The notes under the pieces were generated by a model, which was not told the origin of the DNA, made no database searches, and was given only the letters and a program-made list of their open reading frames with translations. From Paracoccaceae bacterium (GTDB lineage: Bacteria > Pseudomonadota > Alphaproteobacteria > Rhodobacterales > Rhodobacteraceae), in NCBI GenBank assembly GCA_020622085.1, contig JAHRYM010000001.1, positions 991,117 through 1,055,116 on the forward strand: a stretch of DNA of 64,000 nucleotides, written 5' to 3'. The position numbers were made by a program, and so were the translations under genes. This document shows, piece by piece, positions 5,617 to 45,230 of this stretch; position 1 is the first letter of the stretch, and each line of letters starts with the position of its first letter.

Positions 5617-6870
5617 TTAGGCTTCCAGCCGCACCAGCGCGTGGCGCTTCTTGCCCGCCGTCAGCTTCAGGGGTTCGGCCAGATCGGCGGCGCTGAACAT
5701 CTGCCCGGCATCCGACGCGGGCGCATCGTTCAGGCGCGCGCCGCCTTCCGCGATCAGGCGCTTGGCCTCTTTCCCCGATGCCGAAAGGCCGCTGCGGACG
5801 AAAAGCTGCGCCAGCGTGATGCCCTCGCCGATCTCGGCCTTTGACAGCAGGAGCGTCGGCAAGTCATCGCCCACGCCGCCCTTCTCGAAGACCTCGCGCG
5901 CGGTCGCCTCGGCCGCGGATGCCGCTTCGGGCCCGTGCAGAAGGGCGGTGACCTCATTGGCGAGGATGATCTTGGCCGCGTTGATCCCGGACCCTGCAAG
6001 GGTGCCCAGACGGTCGCATTCGGTGACCGGCAGATCGGTGTAAAGCTTCAGGAACCGGCCCACGTCGGCGTCGGTGGTGTTGCGCCAGAACTGCCAGAAT
6101 TCGTAAGGGCTCAGCATCGCGCCATTCAGCCAGACCGCCCCGCCCGCAGACTTGCCCATCTTGCGTCCGTCGCTTGTGGTCAGCAGCGGCGATGTCAGGC
6201 CGTAGATCTCATGGTCGACCACGCGGCGCGTCAGGTCGATGCCGTTGACGATATTGCCCCACTGGTCGCTGCCGCCCATCTGCAACAGGCAGCCATAGCG
6301 CCGATGGATTTCAAGAAAATCATAGGCTTGCAGGATCATGTAGTTGAATTCGAGGAAGGACAGCGACTGTTCCCGGTCGAGCCGCGATTTCACCGATTCA
6401 AACGACAGCATCCGGTTGACGCTGAAATGCCGCCCGATGTCGCGCAGGAAATCCAGATAGTTCAGGCTGTCGAGCCATTCGGCATTGTTGAGCATGATCG
6501 CATCGGTCGCGCCGGTGCCATAAACCAGGTAGCGGCCAAAGACCTGCTGCATCCCGGCGATGTTCTCGTCGATCTTCTCGGGCGTCAGCAGCGGGCGCTC
6601 CTCGGACCGGAAGGAGGGATCGCCCACCTTGGTCGTGCCGCCGCCCATCAGCGTGATCGGCTTGTGCCCGGTCTTTTGCAACCAGCGCAGCATCATGATG
6701 TTCAGCAGATGTCCGACGTGCAGGCTCGCCGCAGTGGCGTCATAGCCGATATAGGCCGGAACCACGCCCCTGACCAAAGCCTCGTCCAGCCCCTGATAAT
6801 CGGTGCAGTCGGCCATGTAGCCGCGCTCGATCATCACGCGCATGAAGTCCGATTTCGGGTGATAGGTCAT
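5617..6870 (-). CDS. tyrS: tyrosyl-tRNA synthetase
   Basis: [47 protein letters not shown]-terminal S4 domain. Confidence 0.96.
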
Positions 6871-6944
6871 GGGCTGCCCCTTTTCGTGGCGTTCATTCTT
6901 TCGGCAATGCGTCTATAAGAGGGAAAAAGCCGAAGGGAAAGAAC

Positions 6945-8057
6945 ATGCTGGGGCAGGGCGTCATCCGTGCATTGGGAACCATGTCGGGCACATCGCTCGA
7001 TGGGGTGGACGTGGCCGAGGTTCTGACCGATGGCGAGGTGATCGAGGGTTTCGGAGAGTCCGCCTTTCGCCCCTATTCCCCCGGCGAACAGGCGGTGATC
7101 CGGCAGGCACTGGGCTGCTGGCCGGATCATCCGGGCGTGGCCGAGGCGGCCGAGGTGGTGGAAACCGCCCATGCCGAAGCATTGGCACCGCTGGCGGGCG
7201 GGGCGGATCTGATCGGCTTTCACGGCCAGACGCTGGCCCATGACCCGGCGGGCGGGCGCACGCATCAGGTAGGCGATGGCGGCATTCTGGCCGAGGTTCT
7301 GGGCCGCCCGGTGGTCTGGGATTTCCGCACCGCCGACATGCGTCTGGGCGGGCAGGGGGCGCCGCTGGTGCCCTTCTTTCATTTCGCCTGCGCCCGCTTC
7401 ATCGGCGCCAGGGGTCCGGTGGCCTTCCTCAACCTGGGCGGCGTCGGCAACCTGACATGGGTTGACCCGCGCCGCGCCAGATCCGACAGCCTCGGGGCGC
7501 TGGTGGCCTTCGACACCGGCCCCGCGAATGCGCCGGTGAATGATCTGATGCAGGCGCGTCTTGGCCAGTCCCTGGATGAAGGTGGCGCGCTTGCGGCCGA
7601 AGGGCAGGCGGACGAGGATGTTCTTGGCCAGTTTCTGCGCCACCCCTATTTCCGCCGCCTTCCACCCAAATCGCTGGATCGCAACGACTTCCATGACTTT
7701 CTGCGGCAGGTGTCCCATCTGAGCGATGCCGATGCCGCCGCCACCCTCACCGCCGCTGCCGCCGTGGCCGTGGCCGAGGGCATCGAACACCTGCCCGAAG
7801 CGCCGTCGCAGCTTCTGGTCACCGGGGGCGGGCGGCGCAATGTGACGCTGATGCGCTACCTTGCGGGGCTCATCGATTGCGCGGTCGTGCCTGTGGAAGA
7901 GGTCGGCCTGAACGGCGACATGCTGGAGGCACAGGCCTTTGCCCATCTGGCGGTGCGGGTGGCCCGTGGCCTGCCCACAAGCTGCCCCGCCACCACCGGC
8001 GTTGCCGCCAGCATCGGCGGCGGCCAGATCAGCCGGCCCTCGCGCGTGCCTGCCTGA
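6945..8057 (+). CDS. anmK: anhydro-N-acetylmuramic acid kinase
   Basis: [30 protein letters not shown]-type motifs; divergent to tyrS. Confidence 0.95.
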
Positions 8058-32723: not shown

Positions 32724-33842
32724 ATGCAAGACGCCTATTTCCTGTATCACTCCATCGGCCAGTATCCCGGCAAGACGGCCGACCTCTCCCGCGCCATGGC
32801 GGACTTCGCCGCGGTCTGGGGCGCGACAAACGATGCGCAATGGGACTGGCTGCTGCCCCGCCGCGCAGCCTTCATCGACCGCTGGCGCGCGATCCTGAAC
32901 GCGCCCGAAGGCAGCGTCACCACGGCCGAAAACGTCACGCAGGCGGTGCACATGATCCTGACCGCCCTGCCGCCCGAACGGTTGCGCGGCAAGCGGGTGC
33001 TGATCGCGGCCGATTGCTTTCCGTCGAACCATTTCCTGCTGACCGGATTGCAGGAACGGCTTGGCTTCACGCTGGACACCGTGCCGATGCGGCAGGGCGC
33101 TTCCTGGGTCGAGGACGAGGATTTTGCGGCTCAGTGGGGGCCGGACGTGGCGGTGGCACTGCTCACATGGGTGTCCTCCACCACCTCGAGCCGGATCGAC
33201 CTGCCGGCGCTGGTTGCCCATGGCCGGCGGATGGGCAGCCTTGTGGGCGTGGACATCACCCAGGGCGCGGGGCTTCTGCCCTTTGACGTGATGGCGCCGA
33301 AAGTCGATTTCACGGTCACCACCAGCCTCAAATGGATGTGCGGCACGCCCGGAGCGGGCATCCTGCATGTCGCACCGCACCTGATCGCCGACTGCACGCC
33401 AGAGTTGCGCGGCTGGTTCAGCCAGCCCGATCCGTTCAACTGGGCGCTCGACCGCTTTGCCTTGGCCCCCGATATCCGCCGCTTCGACAATGGCACGCCG
33501 GGCTGCATGGCCGCGATCGCCTCGCTTCCGGCGCTGGACTGGCACGCCGCGCAGGACCATGCCGCGATCCTTGCCGGCAACCGCCGCCAGACCGCGCGGC
33601 TGATGGCGGCGGCGCGCGAGCTGGGGCTGGATCTGGTGACGCCGCTTGCCGAGGCGCGGCGCGGCGGTTCGGTCATGCTGCGCCTGCCGGGCCCGGCCGC
33701 GCCGGTCGTGACCCTCCTGCGCGGGATAGGGATCTCGACCGACGGGCGTGGCAACATCCTGCGCGCCTCGCCCGGGGTGGTGACGACCGATGCCGGGGTC
33801 GAGGCCCTTGTCGAAGGTCTGGCCCGCCACGCCCGTCAGTGA
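32724..33842 (+). CDS. class V aminotransferase-fold PLP enzyme (kynureninase-like)
   Basis: ADCFPSNHFLLTGLQERLG; VGVDITQGAGLLPFDV; TTSLKWMCGTPGAGILHV (Lys motif). Confidence 0.85.
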   Translation: MQDAYFLYHSIGQYPGKTADLSRAMADFAAVWGATNDAQWDWLLPRRAAFIDRWRAILNAPEGSVTTAENVTQAVHMILTALPPERLRGKRVLIAADCFPSNHFLLTGLQERLGFTLDTVPMRQGASWVEDEDFAAQWGPDVAVALLTWVSSTTSSRIDLPALVAHGRRMGSLVGVDITQGAGLLPFDVMAPKVDFTVTTSLKWMCGTPGAGILHVAPHLIADCTPELRGWFSQPDPFNWALDRFALAPDIRRFDNGTPGCMAAIASLPALDWHAAQDHAAILAGNRRQTARLMAAARELGLDLVTPLAEARRGGSVMLRLPGPAAPVVTLLRGIGISTDGRGNILRASPGVVTTDAGVEALVEGLARHARQ

Positions 33843-33893
33843 CGCCGCATGGGCGAGACGCCCCCGGCCATGATCCCCAGGCGCACTCCACTT

Positions 33894-33911
33894 CATGCGC
33901 ATCTGCGCATG
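33894..33911. promoter_or_regulatory. near-perfect palindrome catgcgca-tc-tgcgcatg
   Basis: 8-bp arms, 2-nt spacer, upstream of the SerC-SerA-like fusion gene. Confidence 0.4.
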
Positions 33912-34225
33912 GGCGGGGGATGCGCGCCGTGATCGGAATCAAGCGGATGGGGAAATCGACCCGGATGCCGCCGGGGATTCACTGGATCTGCCGCCATGAT
34001 TGCGCCATTCGGGCGATGCAACGGAATTGCGCAGCCAAACCGACCGTTTGGCGCACTGGATCCGGATCGCGCTGGCGGGCCAGACTCTGCAGGCACCGAC
34101 GCATTGATCGCCAGAAACGTCGAAATTGCACCCTTCCAGTCGGGCCGCCCGCAATAAAGGAAGTCTTGACCCCGCGACATATGTTGCGAGTGGTGTGCGC
34201 TTTTTTCATGGAAGGACCAGCCCGA

Positions 34226-37201
34226 ATGTCGAACAAGGATCTTCTTATCAAGCAGCGTCAGGCGTCCATCGATGCGACGAAGGCCGGCGCGCCCGCCCGC
34301 ACGGGCAACCCGTTCTTTGGCGTTGGCCCGATCACCGACGGCGCCGCCGACGAAGCCGACAGCCGCATGCTCAAGTTCGAGTTCGAACATTGGCTGGAAA
34401 CGAACTACCGCAAGCTTGACGACAAGGGCCGCGATCTTGGCCCCTTCACGGTGGCCGAAATCGGGCGCTCGATGCACCGCGGCTATCCGGCGGACAAGTT
34501 CCTGCTGGACATGATGCGCGAAATCCATCGCTATTTCGAATTCCCCAAGGCCAACAAGATGGCCGTGGGCCTGGGCGGCGGGCATTCGGGCTTTACGGCC
34601 TGCGCGCTGCACCTGATCACGACGAACGACCCCGATCAGCGGATTTTCGTCGATACGCTGCGCCCCGAATCTGACGCCGCCAAGTCATCGGGTTTCTTCC
34701 GCCAGTCCTGGGGCGCGCAGATCATCGAGATGATGCGCTATGCCCGCAACGGTGATGAATCCCGGGTCCACTTCGCCAAGGAAGAGGGCGTGGTCCCCTC
34801 GGCTGCCGAACTGGCGAAGCTGGGCATCAAGCTTTTCGTCGGCGTCGGCCATGAAACGACGGGTGCCAGCACCTATTCGACCCGCGACGTGAAGGAGCTT
34901 CTTGCCTGGATCGACATGAACCCGGCAGAGCATCACGTCGTGCTCGACGCCACCTCGATGCTGGGCGCGATGCCCTGGGGCGAAGACCTGGTGCGCGAAG
35001 TCACGACCAAGTGCTGCATGTTCATGCCCTTCCAGAAGGCGATCGGCGGCATTTCGGGCTATTTCATCGTCTCGTTCACCCCGGCGGCGCTGGCGCTGGT
35101 CGAGGCCAACCAGCAGAATCCGTCCTGGGCCATTCCGCGCCAGCTGAAGATCGCGGCGCCGCTTGACCCCAAGATGCCGCTGACAGGCGCGCGCACCGTG
35201 AACGTCGGCCCGATCTATGATCCGGCGCAGAACAAGATGCTGGGCGGCGTGATCAACACCTTCTCGACCCTTGCCTTCGCGGAAACCACCTTCGGCCTTC
35301 TGCGCGCGGAAAAGCGCATCGGTTCGATCAGCGACCTGAACGCCCGTTCGGTCCGGAACCGCGACGCGGTCAACGCCTGGGTTGCGGCGCACCCGCTCTT
35401 TGATCTTGGCGTCTCGGACCCCGATTACCGTGGCGCCGCCGTGACGCTTCTGAAGGTCACCGACCCGGATATCACCGATCCGGGCATCCACGCGCGCATC
35501 GTCGCCTATTCAAAGGCGATCCTGTCCTATGACGGTGTCACCCATCCGAACGGCAGCTACGAGCCCGGCCTTGACGTGGCGCGCTACATCAACGCCTTCC
35601 CCGGCACGCCCGGCGACTACCGCGCCTGGATCGGTGGCATCCGCCCGGCCGAGGATGTTCCGGCGTTCCTTGACAACCTGGAATATGCCTACCACCGCGC
35701 CAAGATCGCCGTGCTGGAAGAAGAGCTGGCCAAGCTGGGCGTGACCTTCGACCCCGAAGCGGCCGCAGATGCGAACCGCCGGATGGACGACTCGAACCGC
35801 GCCTACAAGGTTCTGATCTGCGATCGCGTCGGGCTGAAGTTCGACGCGAACGGCCAACCGGATCATTCCGAGGTCAAGGCCTATGTCGCGTCGAAAGACG
35901 GCGTCTTCCACGAAGGGCCGCTGGGCGACGAAAGCGCGCTTGAAAAGGGCAAGATCCACTTCTTCTATGTGCCTGACATCTCGACCGAATCCGAGATCAT
36001 GGCGGTTGCGGGCAAGGGCCAGTATGACGCGGTGATAGCGGCCGCGACCTTCCTGCCCAAGGCGTCGGTCTTCAGGCTGGGCGGCGTCCGCATCGGTGCT
36101 GGCACCGGCAACATGGGGTCCGACAGCTGGGGCGGCGGCAATGGCCTGGGTGGCGAGGCGGCGCTGATGAACACGCCCAGCTTCAACAGCCGCGCAACCG
36201 CGCAGATGGCGATGAAGGCGCTTGTGAAGGTGGCCCCCGATCTGCCGGTTGACAGGATGCACGCCCTGACGGCGGCGGGGCAGTTCGACACCGGTCGCAA
36301 TCTGCGCGAATTCCCGACCGAAAAGCTGGAAGGCAAGACCATCGCGATCTTCGGCTATGGCAACATCGGCCGCGAAGTCGCCAAGCTGGCGGCTGCCTTC
36401 GGGATGAAGGTCCGCGTCTTTGCCCGTCCGCATCACAAGGACTGGATCGAATCGGAAGGCTTCACCCATGCCGCGACCAAGGAGGACGCCGCCCGTGGCG
36501 CTGATGTCCTGTCGCTGCACACCGGCCTTGGTGCCCTGAACGCCGAAACTGGCAAATACGCGAATGCGGGCTTCATCGGAGACAGCGTGTTCGCCGTCGT
36601 CAACAAGGGGGCAATCCTTCTGAACTACGACCGCGGCGAAGGTGTTGACGCCGAGGCTCTGGACCGCGCCCTTGCGTCGGGCCAGATCCGCCATGCGGCG
36701 ATCGACGCCGACCTGTTCACCAATGCCGAAACCGGCGCGGCCTCGGGTCCGATGGTTCCCTACCTTCCGCTTGCGGCCAAGTATCCCGGTCGTCTGGAAC
36801 TTCTGCCGCACGCCGCCGCGGATACCGAACACATGAGCCGCGTCGAAGGTGCGAGGCAGGCGGTGGACCAGATCCTTGACCTGATCCAGTACAAGCGCGT
36901 GGTGAACCTGAAAGGCGATCTGCCCGCAGGCTACACCTTCGGCGGTGCCAGGACTGTGCCTGGCGTCGGAGGCGCGACGGCGCGCGATGTGGCGAGCCTT
37001 GCCGGCGATGCCGCCGACCTGACCGCCGCCCGCGCCGCCGCAGAAGAGGTCGCGGCCATCCTCGGTTCACTCGCCACGGCAACAGACGCCGGTCGTCAGG
37101 CGATCCTCATCGAACGCTACGGCAAGGTGCTGCTGAAGGCCGCCAACACGCAAACCACGCTTCTGCGCAAGCACGGCCTAGAAGGCCCCTTTCAGGGCTG
37201 A
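34226..37201 (+). CDS. fusion protein: phosphoserine aminotransferase-like (class V PLP) + D-3-phosphoglycerate dehydrogenase-like NAD domain (991 aa)
   Basis: N-part: GVGHETTGASTYSTRDVKELLAWIDMN..VVLDATSMLGAMPWGEDLV..MPFQKAIGG. C-part: GKTIAIFGYGNIGREVAKLAAAFGMKVRVFAR..VNKGAILLNYDRGEGVDAEALDRAL. Confidence 0.85.
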   Translation: MSNKDLLIKQRQASIDATKAGAPARTGNPFFGVGPITDGAADEADSRMLKFEFEHWLETNYRKLDDKGRDLGPFTVAEIGRSMHRGYPADKFLLDMMREIHRYFEFPKANKMAVGLGGGHSGFTACALHLITTNDPDQRIFVDTLRPESDAAKSSGFFRQSWGAQIIEMMRYARNGDESRVHFAKEEGVVPSAAELAKLGIKLFVGVGHETTGASTYSTRDVKELLAWIDMNPAEHHVVLDATSMLGAMPWGEDLVREVTTKCCMFMPFQKAIGGISGYFIVSFTPAALALVEANQQNPSWAIPRQLKIAAPLDPKMPLTGARTVNVGPIYDPAQNKMLGGVINTFSTLAFAETTFGLLRAEKRIGSISDLNARSVRNRDAVNAWVAAHPLFDLGVSDPDYRGAAVTLLKVTDPDITDPGIHARIVAYSKAILSYDGVTHPNGSYEPGLDVARYINAFPGTPGDYRAWIGGIRPAEDVPAFLDNLEYAYHRAKIAVLEEELAKLGVTFDPEAAADANRRMDDSNRAYKVLICDRVGLKFDANGQPDHSEVKAYVASKDGVFHEGPLGDESALEKGKIHFFYVPDISTESEIMAVAGKGQYDAVIAAATFLPKASVFRLGGVRIGAGTGNMGSDSWGGGNGLGGEAALMNTPSFNSRATAQMAMKALVKVAPDLPVDRMHALTAAGQFDTGRNLREFPTEKLEGKTIAIFGYGNIGREVAKLAAAFGMKVRVFARPHHKDWIESEGFTHAATKEDAARGADVLSLHTGLGALNAETGKYANAGFIGDSVFAVVNKGAILLNYDRGEGVDAEALDRALASGQIRHAAIDADLFTNAETGAASGPMVPYLPLAAKYPGRLELLPHAAADTEHMSRVEGARQAVDQILDLIQYKRVVNLKGDLPAGYTFGGARTVPGVGGATARDVASLAGDAADLTAARAAAEEVAAILGSLATATDAGRQAILIERYGKVLLKAANTQTTLLRKHGLEGPFQG

Positions 37202-37679: not shown

Positions 37680-38729
37680 GACTCCGTTGCACAAATCCCA
37701 TGATGGATTCATCTCGTGAATCCAGCGTGGTATCTGGGCGGCATGAGCAGACCCACGCCCCCCGCCTACAAAACCTGGAACTGGCCCGCATATGACAAGG
37801 CGCTGAAGCGCCGTGGCTCTCTGACGATCTGGTTCGATCCCGCCATGACCTGTGAGGCCGCGCCGACTGGCAAGCGCGGTCGCCAGCCCGCCTGCAGCGA
37901 CGCAGCGATCCAGACCTGCCTGACGATGAAGGTGCTGTTTGGCATGGCGCTGCGGCAAACGACCGGGTTCGTCGAGAGCCTGCTGCGCCTGACCGGCCTG
38001 GACTGGGCCGTGCCTGACTTCAGCACGCTGTCACGGCGCCAGAAGTCCCTGAAGGTCAACATCCCCTACCGCGGCTCGGACGGTCCGCTCCACCTGCTGG
38101 TCGACAGCACCGGGATCAAGGTCGAGGGCGAAGGGGAGTGGAACGCCCGCAAGCATGGCGGCACGAAACGGCGCGTCTGGCGGAAGATCCACATCGGGAT
38201 CGACGAGAAATCCCTGGAAATCCGGGCCGCAGAGTTCACCACCAGCGACGTGGGCGATGCGCCCATGCTGCCCGAACTTCTCGACCAGATACCATCCGAG
38301 CAGGAGATCGCCACCGTCACAGCCGATGGCGCTTTCGACACGCGCAAGTGCCATGACGCCATCGCTGCCCGTGGTGCAACCGCGATCATCCCGCCCCGCA
38401 AGAACGCCAAACCGTGGAAGCCCGACACCGCCGGGGCGGTCGCCCGCAACGAGATTCTGCGCACATCGAAGCGTGTCGGTCGAACCATCTGGCGACGATG
38501 GAGCGGCTATCACCGCCGAAGCCGCGTCGAGGCCAAGATGCACTGTGTGAAGCTGCTCGGCCAGCGCCTGACTGCCCGGGACTTCGACCGTCAGGTCGCA
38601 GAGTTCCAGGTTCGTGTCGCCGTTCTGAACGGCTTCACCGCGCTCGGAACACCCGTCACGGAAGCCGTAGGATAAGTCTGTCCGGGGAAAGGGGTAGTCC
38701 GGGCTGCAAATGATCTGTGCAACAGAGCC
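37680..38729 (+). mobile_element. IS5-family insertion sequence
   Basis: Imperfect terminal inverted repeats: left ...actccgttgcacaaatc; right (reverse complement) ggctctgttgcacagatc; one intact transposase between. Confidence 0.85.
37743..38675 (+). CDS. IS5-family transposase
   Basis: LLVDSTGIKVEGEGEWNARKHGGTKRRVWRKIHIGIDEKSLEIRA DDE transposase; VTADGAFDTRKCHDAIAARGATAIIPPRKNA; start MSRPTPPAYKTWNW. Confidence 0.93.
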   Translation: MSRPTPPAYKTWNWPAYDKALKRRGSLTIWFDPAMTCEAAPTGKRGRQPACSDAAIQTCLTMKVLFGMALRQTTGFVESLLRLTGLDWAVPDFSTLSRRQKSLKVNIPYRGSDGPLHLLVDSTGIKVEGEGEWNARKHGGTKRRVWRKIHIGIDEKSLEIRAAEFTTSDVGDAPMLPELLDQIPSEQEIATVTADGAFDTRKCHDAIAARGATAIIPPRKNAKPWKPDTAGAVARNEILRTSKRVGRTIWRRWSGYHRRSRVEAKMHCVKLLGQRLTARDFDRQVAEFQVRVAVLNGFTALGTPVTEAVG

Positions 38730-38955: not shown

Positions 38956-39045
38956 TGGCGGACAGAGAGGGATTCGAACCCTCGAGACGGTTCCCCGCCT
39001 ACACACTTTCCAGGCGTGCGCCTTCGACCACTCGGCCACCTGTCC
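38956..39045 (-). tRNA. tRNA-Ser(GGA)
   Basis: Minus strand ggacaggtggccgagtggtcgaaggcgcacgcctggaaagtgtgtaggcggggaaccgtctcgagggttcgaatccctctctgtccgcca: anticodon GGA, long variable arm, encoded CCA. Confidence 0.97.
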
Positions 39046-39742: not shown

Positions 39743-40068
39743 TCCTGCCTCCTTCGGCGATACGATGTCCGCGACATCAGGAAACTCCGGCCTCAGAACC
39801 CAGGAATGCGCGAGGGCAGGTGACACGGCGCCGGCCAGAGCCCCGATGCCCGATAGCCACCAGGGATGGTGCCGAAGGCAACCCCGAACGGGGAACCGTT
39901 CATCCACGGTGCGCCACCAATTCGGACGGGCCTTCGCTCTTGCAGAATCCTGCAAGATACCTTCTGGATGATCCGTGTTTGAGTGGTCTGCGTCAGGGGT
40001 TGCGTCAGGTGGAACGCAGGGAAAAGGGGCCAGCGGAATTTTCCGTGCTGAAATCCGTCCTTGCGGGG

Positions 40069-41127
40069 ATGGCAAGGCCGTCGGTAACGGCGGCCGGGAT
40101 TGCCCTTGGCACCGTCGCGGCGCTGTTTCTGGCCTACTGCCTCGTGTTCGGGGCATGGTTCACGGCATCAGATTTCTACCGCTATCTGATGTCCGATGAC
40201 CTGGACACCTACACCAACGTCACACACAAGGTGCTGAGCCGGCAGGGCAGCCACGATCCGGCGATCGTGGTGCTGGGCACCTCGGTCATGGTGCGCTGCG
40301 TCGCGGGCGAGGAGCCGCTGTCGGCGCTGGTGCAGGCCGATAGCGGTCGCAGGCTGGCCACCCATGATCTGGCGACCGATGCGCAGACAAGCTGGGAAAT
40401 GCTGGCACTGGTCGACCGGCTGCCGCCGAACGCGGATGGCGTTCTGGTGATCGGCCTGTCGCCGGGGCTTCTTGAATTCGGAAGCGGCGAAGGGCGCTGG
40501 CAATCGCTGCAAGGTCTGATCGATGCGCCCAAGCTGGGGTTCGTGTCGGCAGCGATGGATCGGGCGGCCGAGGACGCGGGCGCCATCGTGCCCCTTCGCA
40601 CCGGCATCCATGCGCTTGACAATGCCGCCTTCTTCCTTTCGCGGCGAAAAGACATCGTGAAGAACCTGCTCGGGGGCGGCAAGACCTATGGCGAGCCGCT
40701 TGATGCCTATTGGTACAAGAACGTGAACCGGCCTGATTTCTGGCAGTCCGAAATCGAAAAGGTGCCCGGGCAGGAGGCGCTTTACCGCCAGAACGCCGTT
40801 GCCAACTTCACCGTTCTGGAAAGCGTCGTGACGCTTGCACGCCAGAGCGGCGCAAAGGGCGTCGTGATCGTCGAGGCGCCGCTGAACCCCGGCTGGAATG
40901 CGGTGCCGCAGGCGGCGGACTATATCAGCCGCTACCGTCAGGATCTGGCGGACTTTGCGTCGCGCGTCGATGCAACTCTGGTTCGCACGACCGATGACGC
41001 GGGGCTGATCCAGTCCGATTTCGTGGATTACGAAGGACACTTGGGCAATGCGCCCGCGCGCGACCGCTGCACGGGCGCGCTGGCGCGGGGCATCGGGGCG
41101 GCGATGGGGGGCACACATGACGGATGA
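40069..41127 (+). CDS. SGNH-type/DltD-like membrane-anchored protein of Dlt-like operon
   Basis: N-terminal TM; AIVVLGTSVMVRC (G-x-S nucleophile-type motif); SDFVDYEGHLGNA C-terminal Asp/His-type motif; gene context. GTG alternative start at 40045. Confidence 0.7.
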   Translation: MARPSVTAAGIALGTVAALFLAYCLVFGAWFTASDFYRYLMSDDLDTYTNVTHKVLSRQGSHDPAIVVLGTSVMVRCVAGEEPLSALVQADSGRRLATHDLATDAQTSWEMLALVDRLPPNADGVLVIGLSPGLLEFGSGEGRWQSLQGLIDAPKLGFVSAAMDRAAEDAGAIVPLRTGIHALDNAAFFLSRRKDIVKNLLGGGKTYGEPLDAYWYKNVNRPDFWQSEIEKVPGQEALYRQNAVANFTVLESVVTLARQSGAKGVVIVEAPLNPGWNAVPQAADYISRYRQDLADFASRVDATLVRTTDDAGLIQSDFVDYEGHLGNAPARDRCTGALARGIGAAMGGTHDG

Positions 41128-41266
41128 TGCAGAAAAGCACAGCCGAGCCAGACGGTTCGGCGCCATTCTTCAGGGGCTGGTTCTGGGCGTTCTGGTCAGC
41201 ATCGCCATCGTCGAGCTATGGGCCCGGGCCGATGATGTGCGCCTGTTCCGTTACCAGAACTTCTGA
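41117..41266 (+). CDS. 49-aa single-TM microprotein with C-terminal FxYxxF acyl-shuttle-like motif (DltX-like)
   Basis: MTDDAEKHSRARRFGAILQGLVLGVLVSIAIVELWARADDVRLFRYQNF; basic N-terminus, one TM, C-terminal hexapeptide FRYQNF; 11-bp overlap with upstream gene. Confidence 0.8.
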   Translation: MTDDAEKHSRARRFGAILQGLVLGVLVSIAIVELWARADDVRLFRYQNF

Positions 41267-41281
41267 CCGGGGCCGATCCAG

Positions 41282-42469
41282 ATGATCCAGACAGGCACCT
41301 TCTGGCTTGTGATCTTCGGAACGGCGGCTGTCTACTGGCTGCTGCCGCGACCCTTGCGGCTGGGGTTTCTGGCGATCGCCTCCTATCTCTATCTTGCCTC
41401 GATCGACCCGGTCGGCGTCACTGTCCTGATCGGCTGGACCCTGCTGTTTTTCCATGTGGCACCGGCTGCGGTGCGGGATCGAAACCGGGGCGGCACGGTG
41501 CTGACCGGCCTTGTGCTGGCGATCCTGAGCTACCTGATCTGGCAGAAATACCTGCCCGCCTTCATGGACCTGATGGGCCGCGCCACGCCCGGTGTTGCGG
41601 TGGCGGTGCCGCTGGGCATCAGCTACTTCAGTTTCAAGCTGATCCATTACGCCGTGGAAACTGCGCGGGGCAACATCAGGGACCGCTCACTCTCGCGGTT
41701 CTTCTGCTACATCTTCCTGTTCCCGATCTTCACCGCCGGCCCGATCGAGCGGTTCGAGCATTTCAAGGCCAATATCGCCGACCGGTTCGTGGCGCAGACC
41801 GCCGCCGAAGGGCTGATCCGCATTGCGCACGGGCTGATCAAGATCTTCGTGATCGCGCATCTGGTGCAACCGTCGGACTTCGGCATGGGGGTTCCCGCCA
41901 GCCCGGCGGCGCTGCTGGAAGGGGCGGATACCGTCGCGCTCTGGCAGACCTGGGCCTTCCTGATCCTGACCTACCTTTACGCCTATCTGGATTTCAGCGC
42001 CTACAGCGACATCGCCATCGGCACGAGCCGCCTGTTCGGCATCCGCATCATGGAGAACTTCCGCCTGCCGGTGCTTGCGCAGAACATCACCGATTTCTGG
42101 AAACGCTGGCACATGACGCTGGCCGCCTGGTGCCAGAGCTACGTCTACATGCCGGTGCTGGCGCGCACCCGGATGCCCTATGCGGCCGTCTATGCGACCT
42201 TCATCGCCATGGGGCTCTGGCACGGGGCGACGGGGGGCTGGTTCTTGTGGGGGGTCTATCACGCCTCGGGCGTGGCCGGTTACACGATGTGGGCGCGGCG
42301 GATGCGGGGCCGGGGCTGGTGGCGCAAGGCGCAGGGCAGCGGCTGGAAATATCTGGGCATCCCGCTCACCTTCCTCTTCGTGTCGGGAAGCTATGCCTTT
42401 TCCTCGGCGCCCGCAGGGGCCTGGTCGGGGATCCGCATCTTCCTTCTGGCCTTCGGCATAAGGACGTGA
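41282..42469 (+). CDS. MBOAT family O-acyltransferase (DltB-like)
   Basis: YLDFSAYSDIAIGTSRLFGIRIMENFRLPVLAQNITDFWKRWHMTLAAWCQSYVYMP; MGLWHGATGGWFLWGVYHASG. Confidence 0.93.
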   Translation: MIQTGTFWLVIFGTAAVYWLLPRPLRLGFLAIASYLYLASIDPVGVTVLIGWTLLFFHVAPAAVRDRNRGGTVLTGLVLAILSYLIWQKYLPAFMDLMGRATPGVAVAVPLGISYFSFKLIHYAVETARGNIRDRSLSRFFCYIFLFPIFTAGPIERFEHFKANIADRFVAQTAAEGLIRIAHGLIKIFVIAHLVQPSDFGMGVPASPAALLEGADTVALWQTWAFLILTYLYAYLDFSAYSDIAIGTSRLFGIRIMENFRLPVLAQNITDFWKRWHMTLAAWCQSYVYMPVLARTRMPYAAVYATFIAMGLWHGATGGWFLWGVYHASGVAGYTMWARRMRGRGWWRKAQGSGWKYLGIPLTFLFVSGSYAFSSAPAGAWSGIRIFLLAFGIRT

Positions 42470-42473
42470 CGCC

Positions 42474-44075
42474 ATGAACCGGACACCTGCTGGGGAATGG
42501 CTGGGTGCGGGGTTTCACAACGCCTGCCAGCGCGTGCCGGATCGGATCGCGCTGTCCATTGATGGCCGGCGGATCAGCTATGCGGGCCTTGCCCCGATCG
42601 CGGGTGGCATTGCTGCGGCGCTTGGACCCGGCGAAGGGCAGGGGGGTGATGCCCCGGAACTGACCGCACTGCTCGCGTCACGGTCCGTCGCGGCCTATGC
42701 GGGGATTCTGGGGATCCTTTACACCAGCCATGGCTATGTGCCGCTGAACCCCGGCCATCCGGTCGGGCGGCTGGCCTATGTGCTGGCGCATTCCGGCGTG
42801 CGGCGGCTGGTGGTCGATACGGGCGGCGAGGCGGTGCTGGATGCGCTGCTGGCCGATTGCACCGCACCCTTGCGCATCGTTCTGGCCGACCGCGACGACG
42901 TGGCCGACATCGCCGCGCGCCATCCGCTGCACGATATCCGGGCGGGTCAACGCGTCGCCCCACTGCCACCGCCCCCCGCAGTGCCGATGGGCGAGCGGGT
43001 CGCCTATCTGCTTTACACTTCGGGCAGCACCGGGCACCCCAAGGGCGTGATGGTCACGCATGGAAATGTCGGGCATTTCCTTTGCGCGATGGAGGAGCGC
43101 TTCGATCTGACCGAGGCAGACCGTTTTTCACAGATGTTCGACCTGGGCTTCGATCTGTCGGTCTTCGATCTGTTCATGGCCTGGCGCGTGGGGGGCACGC
43201 TTTGCTGTCCCGGCGCGGGCGATCTGATGCTTCCGGCCGACTTCATCCGCCGCGAAAACCTGACCGTCTGGTTCTCGGTGCCGTCCGCCGCCGTCCTGCT
43301 GAACCGCCTGCGGCAGCTCGAGCCGGGCGCCTTTCCGACGCTTCGCCTGTCGCTGTTCTGCGGCGAGGCGTTCCCCGCCGCCGCCGCCGCGGCCTGGGCG
43401 GTGGCGGCACCGAACGCGGTTGTCGAAAACCTCTATGGCCCCACCGAACTGACGCTCGCCTGCACCGGCTACCGCATCGACGGAACCGAAGGGCAGGCGG
43501 GGGCAGTCCCGATCGGCCGGCCTTTCCCCGGCCTTGTCGCCAGGGTCGTCACCCCCGATCTGGCCGAGGTTGCGCCGGGAGGAGAGGGTGAGTTGATGGT
43601 ATCAGGCCCGCAGGTCGCCCCCGGTTACTGGCGCGATGCGGAAAAGACCGCCGCCGCCTTTGTCACCGACCCGGCCACCGGCGCGCGCGCCTATCTGACG
43701 GGCGATCTGGTGCAGCGCCCCGCCATGCCTGGCGATCCGATCCGCTACCTTGGCCGGCTGGACCACCAGATCAAGCTGCACGGCCACCGGATCGAACTGG
43801 GGGAAATCGAGGCGGCGCTGCGCGATGCGACCGGCGTCATCCATGTGGTGGCCGCCGGCCTGCCAGATGCCAGCGGCGCCATCACCGGCATCGCGGGCCT
43901 GATCGAGGCGCCGGAGGTGGATGTGTCCCGCGTCATCTCGCGGCTGTCCGACCGGCTTCCGGCGTATATGATGCCCAAGCGTATCGTTGCCGTTCCCCAA
44001 TTCCCGCTGACGCCGAATGGCAAGATCGACCGCAAGAGCCTTGTCGCCCTGTTGGCGGCCCCCGCAAGAAAGTGA
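42474..44075 (+). CDS. amino acid adenylation (DltA/NRPS A-domain-like) enzyme
   Basis: A3 LLYTSGSTGHPKGVMVTH; FDLSVFDLF; A5 NLYGPTELT; A7 YLTGDL; A8 GRLDHQIKLHGHRIELGEIEAAL; A10 PNGKIDRKSL. Confidence 0.93.
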   Translation: MNRTPAGEWLGAGFHNACQRVPDRIALSIDGRRISYAGLAPIAGGIAAALGPGEGQGGDAPELTALLASRSVAAYAGILGILYTSHGYVPLNPGHPVGRLAYVLAHSGVRRLVVDTGGEAVLDALLADCTAPLRIVLADRDDVADIAARHPLHDIRAGQRVAPLPPPPAVPMGERVAYLLYTSGSTGHPKGVMVTHGNVGHFLCAMEERFDLTEADRFSQMFDLGFDLSVFDLFMAWRVGGTLCCPGAGDLMLPADFIRRENLTVWFSVPSAAVLLNRLRQLEPGAFPTLRLSLFCGEAFPAAAAAAWAVAAPNAVVENLYGPTELTLACTGYRIDGTEGQAGAVPIGRPFPGLVARVVTPDLAEVAPGGEGELMVSGPQVAPGYWRDAEKTAAAFVTDPATGARAYLTGDLVQRPAMPGDPIRYLGRLDHQIKLHGHRIELGEIEAALRDATGVIHVVAAGLPDASGAITGIAGLIEAPEVDVSRVISRLSDRLPAYMMPKRIVAVPQFPLTPNGKIDRKSLVALLAAPARK

Positions 44076-44326
44076 GACCCGAAGTGACCGTTACCAGCAC
44101 CGATCTGCGCAGCTACATCACCGGCACGCTCAACTTCGACCTGCCCGGCGTCACGGACGCCGACCCGCTGTTCAGCTCTGGCCTTGTCGATTCCTTTGCG
44201 ATGATCGACCTGATCATGTTCCTTGAAACGAAGGGCGGCTTGCGCATCCCGCCTGCCGACATCACGCTTGACAACTTTGACACGCTCGACCGCATCGTTG
44301 CCTTCATGGCCCGCAATGCCCGCTAG
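44072..44326 (+). CDS. acyl/peptidyl carrier protein (DltC-like)
   Basis: 84 aa; LFSSGLVDSFAMIDLIMFLE phosphopantetheine Ser motif; overlaps neighbours on both sides. Confidence 0.9.
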   Translation: MRPEVTVTSTDLRSYITGTLNFDLPGVTDADPLFSSGLVDSFAMIDLIMFLETKGGLRIPPADITLDNFDTLDRIVAFMARNAR

Positions 44327-45230
44327 GCCGCAACCCGAAGGGATCGTCGTTCTGGGCTGCCCGCGGTCGGGCACGACGCTGCTTCGCCGGCTTCTGGATG
44401 CGCACCCGGCCATCGCCGCGCCGGGCGAAACCTACCTTCTGACCGCCGCCGCCCGTTTTCTGGAAGGCGAGACCATGGTCGACGGGCTGGAAGTGGGGGT
44501 GGTCAACGGCCTTGGTTTCCTGGGCTTTCCGCCCGATGAGGTGATCATCCGCCTGCGCGATTTTGCCTTTGCCTTCCGCCGCGAACATGCCGCCCGCGAA
44601 GGCAAGCGGCTGTGGCTGGAAAAGACTGCCGTCGATGCCTTCCATCTGGAGACGATCACCCGGCTTTGTGGCGACCATGTGCATTACCTTTGCGTTGCCC
44701 GGCACGGGCTCGACGTGGTCTGTTCGATGCAGGACTGGGTCGCCAAGTCGCAGGCCTATCCGTCCGAACTGCACCGCTTCATCCGCGAAACCCCCCGCCC
44801 GTTCGAGGCCTTCGCCCGCGCCTGGGTCGAGGCGACGGCGGCCATTGTCGCCTTTGCCGAAAGCAACCCGGACCGCGCCACGCTGGTCCGCTACGAAGAC
44901 CTTGTGGCCGACCCCGATGCGACGATGGCGCGCGTCCTGGCCGATGTTGGCGAAACCTTCGACCCGGCGGCCATTGGCCGGGCGCTGGCCAACCGCGATG
45001 CCAAGGGCTTCAGCGACTGGAAAACCTTTGCCTCGGCCGCCATCGAGGGCGCCAGCATCGGTCGCTACAAGCGCCATCTGTCTGCCGATACGGCAAGCGG
45101 TCTGGCAGGCATCACCGGCCCGTTGCTGGAACATCTGGGCTATGAGGTTCCGAACATGACCTCGACGCGCGACGCCGAGGCACTGCGACGCCGATACCTG
45201 GCCGGGCTGGCGTTGCAGGGCCTGCGATAG
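44316..45230 (+). CDS. sulfotransferase family protein
   Basis: IVVLGCPRSGTTLLRRLLDAHPAIAAPGET 5'-PSB loop; LVRYEDLVADPDATMARVLADVG. Confidence 0.88.
   Translation: MPARPQPEGIVVLGCPRSGTTLLRRLLDAHPAIAAPGETYLLTAAARFLEGETMVDGLEVGVVNGLGFLGFPPDEVIIRLRDFAFAFRREHAAREGKRLWLEKTAVDAFHLETITRLCGDHVHYLCVARHGLDVVCSMQDWVAKSQAYPSELHRFIRETPRPFEAFARAWVEATAAIVAFAESNPDRATLVRYEDLVADPDATMARVLADVGETFDPAAIGRALANRDAKGFSDWKTFASAAIEGASIGRYKRHLSADTASGLAGITGPLLEHLGYEVPNMTSTRDAEALRRRYLAGLALQGLR

Follow-up and report, generated by a model that had tools for sequence, protein, structure and literature searches.

Does a six-gene operon in a Gram-negative bacterium, laid out like the Dlt pathway and ending in a sulfotransferase gene, belong to the Dlt family, and what might it add to the cell envelope? 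The operon lies in a 64,000-nucleotide stretch of DNA (the window) from a Paracoccaceae bacterium, and the host is the alphaproteobacterium that a preliminary description of the bare sequence had supposed. That description proposed a Dlt-like envelope acylation operon of six tightly packed genes in one direction. All six open reading frames were found, between positions 40045 and 45230, with neighbors overlapping or at most 15 bp apart (Table 1).

Table 1. Genes of the cassette and features upstream of it (window positions).
Feature	Position	Strand	Remarks
IS transposase (DDE)	37716-38675	+	upstream of the cassette
tRNA-Ser(GGA)	38956-39045	-	just upstream of the cassette
SGNH/DltD-like periplasmic acyltransferase (predicted)	40045-41127	+	one N-terminal membrane helix; start GTG 40045 or ATG 40069
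Microprotein, 49 aa, single-pass, predicted acyl shuttle (DltX equivalent)	41117-41266	+	C-terminal FRYQNF
MBOAT, short (395 aa), DltB-like, without fused C-terminal shuttle	41282-42469	+	PF03062 2.3e-23
Stand-alone amino-acid adenylation enzyme, type I (DltA/NRPS-like)	42474-44075	+	AMP-binding 3.7e-70
Aminoacyl carrier protein	44084-44326 (GTG start, or 44072)	+	PP-binding 5e-6
PAPS-dependent sulfotransferase, subfamily tied to such loci	44316-45230	+	Sulfotransfer_3 2.8e-24, 87 bits (cut-off 27)

The six genes appear to travel as one cassette

The SGNH and microprotein genes overlap by 11 bp, as do the carrier and sulfotransferase genes, and the gaps are 15 bp from microprotein to MBOAT, 4 bp from MBOAT to adenylation domain (A-domain) and 8 bp from A-domain to carrier, the last becoming an overlap if the carrier starts at GTG 44072. 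Profile searches returned the anticipated MBOAT, AMP-binding, PP-binding and Sulfotransfer_3 domains, all above their Pfam cut-offs. The congeneric genome QY30 has the same operon, with 80.5% DNA identity over window positions 40077-45224 and unrelated flanks; besides the cassette, the only aligned stretches are a tRNA-Ser gene, whose anticodon is GGA in the window but GCT in QY30, and an unrelated piece of 98 bp. The stretches that align between the window and Defluviimonas are confined to the operon interior. The gammaproteobacterial locus L183 has the identical six genes in identical order, and all six are also present in L184. Because the cassette and the tRNA-Ser gene align between congeners and the flanks do not, the six genes appear to travel together, and both the QY30 alignment and the L183 gene order bear out the proposed intact six-gene unit. 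The tRNA-Ser(GGA) gene and DDE transposase upstream are likely the setting of a mobile insertion.

A scan for promoters and terminators gave no signal beyond chance. The flanks, which hold DUF411, chromate transporter and siderophore ABC genes as well as the IS transposase and tRNA-Ser, were searched for a clue to the acceptor and none was informative; no glycan or lipid synthesis gene adjoins the cassette, so nothing local points to the acceptor. Farther upstream, a very long open reading frame (33332-37201, + strand) has a C-terminal 2-hydroxyacid dehydrogenase domain and a large phosphoserine aminotransferase-like N-terminal region; it is possibly a SerC-SerA fusion, of which Pfam recognized the dehydrogenase part only.

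MBOAT, microprotein and SGNH protein

The best NCBIfam model for the MBOAT protein is LTA_dltB (167.8 bits), and it matches DltB in the PDB (8jem/6bug) at about 5e-27. His277 (42110-42112) and His314 (42221-42223) are invariant in the alignment. At 395 amino acids and ending in AFGIRT, the protein is without the fused motif that most MBOATs of 450-520 amino acids carry. The adjacent microprotein has a basic N-terminus and one hydrophobic helix, and its last six residues (FRYQNF, 41246-41263) match FxYxxF exactly. FXYXXF is the acyl-shuttle motif of DltX, in which the Tyr bears the acyl group, and a very similar motif stands at the fused C-termini of PatA-type MBOATs; acyl-Tyr chemistry is established for DltX and PatA (PMC12148441). 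Among the 366 short open reading frames (30-90 aa) of the window the microprotein alone ends in FxYxxF, and in 20 mononucleotide shuffles none of 14,152 short open reading frames did. The microprotein had no match in Pfam or NCBIfam, and PF12459 (DltX) gave none at E 1, in the same run that scored Listeria DltX at 57 and Bacillaceae DltX at 45 bits. Its interpretation as the DltX equivalent is upheld by the exact motif beside an MBOAT that has none and by the counterparts found throughout the MBOAT clade described below.

Pfam did not recognize the SGNH protein (E 0.065) and a sequence-profile search against the PDB gave nothing useful; its identity came from the fold. With the AlphaFold model (pLDDT 88.4) as query, the first 12 Foldseek matches were all DltD (best 6o93, E 5e-5; TM about 0.4-0.46). 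VIA-align returned many SGNH enzymes at Z 13-15; DltD (7dxm), level with others of them at Z 13.2, gave the longest alignment among the matches listed, 268 residues. Ser80 (40282-40284), Asp328 (41026-41028) and His332 (41038-41040) are invariant in 10 aligned sequences. Judged from its model, the protein is an SGNH enzyme that is DltD-like by overall shape.

Adenylation enzyme, carrier and types of loading

The A-domain scored 317.9 bits with AA-adenyl-dom (cut-off 317.4). Its specificity pocket was mapped with a GrsA sequence as ruler; as a check on the mapping, the known GrsA code DAWTIAAICK was recovered. The code DLFFLCLLAK is shared by the window, QY30, Defluviimonas and, at 49% overall identity, a Phycisphaeraceae MAG; two gammaproteobacteria have DLFLLCIV[S/T]K. 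The pocket of Gram-positive DltA is DLMTLCTVAK in three of five, and that of dra-like DltA is DLYVLCTVAK or DLYVLCSVAK. Residues shared with DltA are Asp235, Leu236, Leu299, Cys301, Ala331 and Lys517; Asp235 argues for an alpha-amino acid, and Cys301 corresponds to the DltA Cys linked to D-Ala preference. Positions 239, 278 and 322 are unlike DltA (F, F and L vs M/Y, T/V and T/S), so the cargo amino acid may differ. This DltA-like pocket suggests a small amino acid such as alanine, and we put the chance that the cargo is alanine a little short of even. In the A-domain tree the six type I members form a clade (100/100), next to but apart from DltA (100/100). The carrier has its phosphopantetheine Ser37 (codon 44192-44194) in a DSF motif that is invariant in 9 aligned sequences, and its best NCBIfam model is DltC, below cut-off.

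Three kinds of loading enzyme accompany the same export machine, and the window has type I, the amino-acid A-domain. In type II, found at the sister loci L034, L037, L038, L144 and L182, the A-domain gives way to relatives of TIGR03098/TIGR03099: an exosortase-type ligase whose residue 330 is Arg and, in several loci, a PLP decarboxylase as well, which together suggest an acidic amino acid that is loaded through its side chain and afterwards decarboxylated. In type III, from the neighboring MBOAT clade, adenylating enzyme and carrier form one fused protein, and only at L188 was a microprotein detected. At L185, L187 and L189-L191, which have a short MBOAT, an SGNH protein and an A-carrier fusion, an FxYxxF microprotein was sought and not found, so that only for the 16-member clade can a microprotein be called constant; these loci may have a shuttle elsewhere or with another motif.

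Phylogeny and occurrence

In an unrooted MBOAT tree the window protein falls in a 16-member clade (100/99) from Paracoccaceae, Planctomycetota and gammaproteobacteria, in which planctomycetes are the nearest relatives outside Paracoccaceae. Every one of the 16 members has a separate FxYxxF microprotein, and nearly all clade loci have a carrier, whatever the loading type. Gram-positive DltB groups with two betaproteobacterial dra-like MBOATs in another clade (100/99); the Dlt references were other Bacillaceae and one Listeria record, because true DltB was not found in Cytobacillus-type genomes. The 12 fused-motif MBOATs placed in the tree form one clade (100/98) surrounded by separate-microprotein MBOATs, among which four of L185, L187 and L189-L191 were labelled sepX solely for their short MBOAT. 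This topology suggests that the shuttle motif was fused to the MBOAT, or split from it, just once; subject to a rooted tree, the PatA/AlgI type could descend from a single fusion.

The 16 clade members came from a genome-wide scan together with searches of Alphaproteobacteria, of Planctomycetota and of the order that holds Pseudohalioglobus. Four of 394 genomes of the same family, the window's own included, carry the window MBOAT type; the remaining MBOAT matches in these genomes were weaker and mostly longer.

The sulfotransferase

With Sulfotransfer_3 above cut-off and PAPS-binding residues in place, the last gene has the marks of a PAPS-dependent sulfotransferase: the PAPS loop PRSGTT, R129 and S137 do not vary among 10 aligned sequences, the relatives among them being 39-88% identical to the window protein. 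The nearest solved folds to its model (pLDDT 70) are TPST (protein-tyrosine) and the olefin-synthase/CurM sulfotransferase domains. NoeE was rejected as an identification (NF052394 67.1 bits vs a cut-off of 500). The subfamily occurs at the window, QY30, Defluviimonas, L034, L038, L180 (a few kb away), L183 and L184, at L188 and L189 in the neighboring clade, and in two of 255 planctomycete genomes, both of which have the MBOAT system and one of which supplied a row of the query alignment. It recurs with three types of loading enzyme. Because the subfamily recurs at such loci yet is missing from about half of the 16-member clade, gene content marks it as a dedicated but optional partner. The view that the sulfotransferase belongs to the unit is strengthened by this recurrence and by its movement within the cassette; the doubly modified envelope glycan or small molecule that had been proposed is only one among several readings of it.

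Proposed pathway

From the anatomy, motifs, fold and co-inheritance of the genes we infer the chemical steps, the acyl group, an acceptor and a target of the sulfate as follows. The acyl group probably passes from A-domain to carrier, MBOAT, microprotein Tyr, SGNH Ser and envelope acceptor, in that order. In the cytoplasm the A-domain would activate a small amino acid (at best guess alanine, D or L, with glycine possible) and, going by its family and pocket, would load it onto the carrier phosphopantetheine arm. The MBOAT would then carry the acyl group across the membrane, onto Tyr46 in the FRYQNF tail of the microprotein, in the periplasm; the microprotein would deliver it to the DltD-like SGNH protein at Ser80, and the latter would transfer it as an ester to the envelope acceptor. 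The sulfotransferase would add sulfate to the acceptor or its precursor in the cytoplasm, and the product would in this proposal bear both an amino-acyl ester and sulfate.

This acyl route is supported by the conserved catalytic residues of the SGNH protein, MBOAT, carrier and sulfotransferase, by the exact FxYxxF end next to an MBOAT without its own motif, by DltD as the best match to the SGNH fold, by the separate microprotein of all 16 clade members with fused-motif MBOATs in a clade apart, and by an A-domain code that is identical in Paracoccaceae and the Phycisphaeraceae MAG and has six residues in common with DltA. The Dlt pathway logic claimed for the operon agrees with this anatomy, the motifs and the DltD-like fold. 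As the best explanation, the proposal gains from the six-gene order in L183, the six genes in L184, the cassette alone (with tRNA-Ser) aligning between congeners, and the planctomycete sulfotransferases, found in MBOAT-system carriers; it is weakened by the differing pocket positions, the patchiness of the sulfotransferase and the lack of neighbor genes that name an acceptor.

Alternative explanations

A true D-alanylation operon acquired from Gram-positives or from proteobacterial dra/dlt loci would have this gene set and logic, DltA, DltB and DltC are its best or near-best NCBIfam models, and Cys301 is as in DltA. It is nevertheless very unlikely, as all equivalog cut-offs failed: the DltB equivalog TIGR04091 gave 167.8 bits against a cut-off of 375 (Gram-positive controls, 512-521), the DltA equivalog TIGR01734 226.6 against 559.85, and the DltC equivalog TIGR01688 22 against 52.35. 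PF12459 finds real DltX and not the microprotein, the closest relatives outside Paracoccaceae are planctomycetes, and the MBOAT and A-domain trees place the cassette outside the Dlt and dra clade (100/99 and 100/100), which contradicts descent. Because every tested Dlt family cut-off fails and both trees exclude it, we regard the cassette as Dlt-like, and not as a Dlt member by descent: the likeness stands and Dlt membership falls. The most improbable reading is that an unrelated small molecule is the product of the A-domain, carrier and sulfotransferase, whose genes would adjoin the MBOAT genes only by chance. The A-domain does resemble NRPS domains, and in L184 the A-carrier-sulfotransferase genes lie on the strand opposite the MBOAT-microprotein-SGNH genes; but the six genes are found together in both Paracoccaceae and gammaproteobacteria and travel as a unit, the carrier accompanies nearly all clade loci regardless of loading type, and neither a condensation nor a thioesterase domain was seen next to the window genes.

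The sulfotransferase might instead act on the cargo, the carrier-bound acyl group being sulfated and then exported. Olefin-synthase/CurM sulfotransferase domains sulfate carrier-bound acyl chains, and these domains are, with TPST, the nearest solved structures; the enzyme accompanies three different loading enzymes, always beside such machinery, and no acceptor-making genes recur. We consider this reading unlikely, given that the type I pocket seems built for a small hydroxyl-free amino acid, on which only the amine is left, that half of the clade does without a sulfotransferase, and that TPST matches as well as CurM to a model with pLDDT of only 70. Sulfate on the acceptor rather than on the cargo is in our estimate an evenly balanced proposition.

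Comparison with known systems and significance

Like Gram-positive DltXABCD, the cassette has an A-domain, carrier, MBOAT, FxYxxF microprotein and DltD-like SGNH protein in one operon, with Cys301 and Asp235 in the A-domain pocket; it differs in its separate MBOAT and A-domain clades, sub-cut-off scores, lack of a Pfam DltX match and extra sulfotransferase, and in a host in which no teichoic acid is expected. Dlt logic in a Gram-negative had seemed noteworthy as new and is not: dlt genes were published from Dickeya, where they have a part in surviving polymyxin, and from Pectobacterium and Photorhabdus (PMC3544676), as was the Dlt-type dra locus (BP2987-2991) of Bordetella (PMC9858536), and DltX of Gram-negative species is mentioned in PMC5541007. 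These loci likewise put Dlt-type genes in a Gram-negative envelope; however, the dra-like MBOAT and DltA of the tested loci group with Gram-positive Dlt and not with the cassette clade, and no sulfotransferase was seen at the dra-like loci L199 and L200. In the betaproteobacterial dra-like locus L200, a separate microprotein that ends in FQYQQF is encoded between DltD and DltB (6836-7177, - strand); a shuttle is therefore present in one or more dra-like Gram-negative loci as well.

The MBOAT, SGNH protein and FxYxxF Tyr motif of the wider MBOAT-SGNH acyl-Tyr shuttle class are all present in the cassette. The acetyltransferases PatAB, AlgIJ/X and WssHI share these but use acetyl-CoA as donor, without a carrier and with the motif fused to a longer MBOAT (PMC12148441), whereas the cassette has a separate microprotein and a carrier protein. 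Relatives of the exosortase-A ligase and decarboxylase (TIGR03098, TIGR03099) stand in for the A-domain in sister loci; the window A-domain is of another family (TIGR03098 200.4 bits, cut-off 592.35), with no decarboxylase. MBOAT/SGNH pathways other than Dlt are described as without a DltX-like microprotein and without a carrier (PMC12148441), yet the 16-member clade, as classified by its trees, has both and is not Dlt by descent. We found no paper on the clade or its sulfotransferase in the openly licensed literature.

The cassette would thus work like Dlt as a separate lineage, Gram-negative dlt loci as such being already known. A separate shuttle microprotein with a carrier donor, so far mainly Dlt, would also define another deep lineage, spanning alphaproteobacteria, gammaproteobacteria and planctomycetes, in which loading enzymes can be exchanged and a sulfotransferase is dedicated to the system. 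We suggest only tentatively that this is a widespread, unnamed Gram-negative envelope modification in which a stand-alone shuttle exports a sulfated amino-acyl group, or the acceptor is sulfated by a dedicated enzyme; if true, it would be zwitterionic surface chemistry not described before. The long-standing question of the targets of Dlt-like systems without teichoic acids becomes testable with a compact six-gene cassette from an environmental bacterium.

More distant MBOAT genes

Short MBOATs with a 37-77-aa microprotein frame ending FIYQNF occur in Syntrophomonadaceae and other Bacillota (L040-L043), where no convincing adenylation enzyme or carrier was seen close by. Plasmid and phage searches gave no close relative among the matches listed, all of which had less than 60% identity and, if annotated at all, were AlgI/PatA- or DltB-like. 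Pseudomonas phages KM389210, KM389212 and PP740689 carry MBOAT genes whose products are 31% identical to the window MBOAT and are probably O-antigen acetylases.
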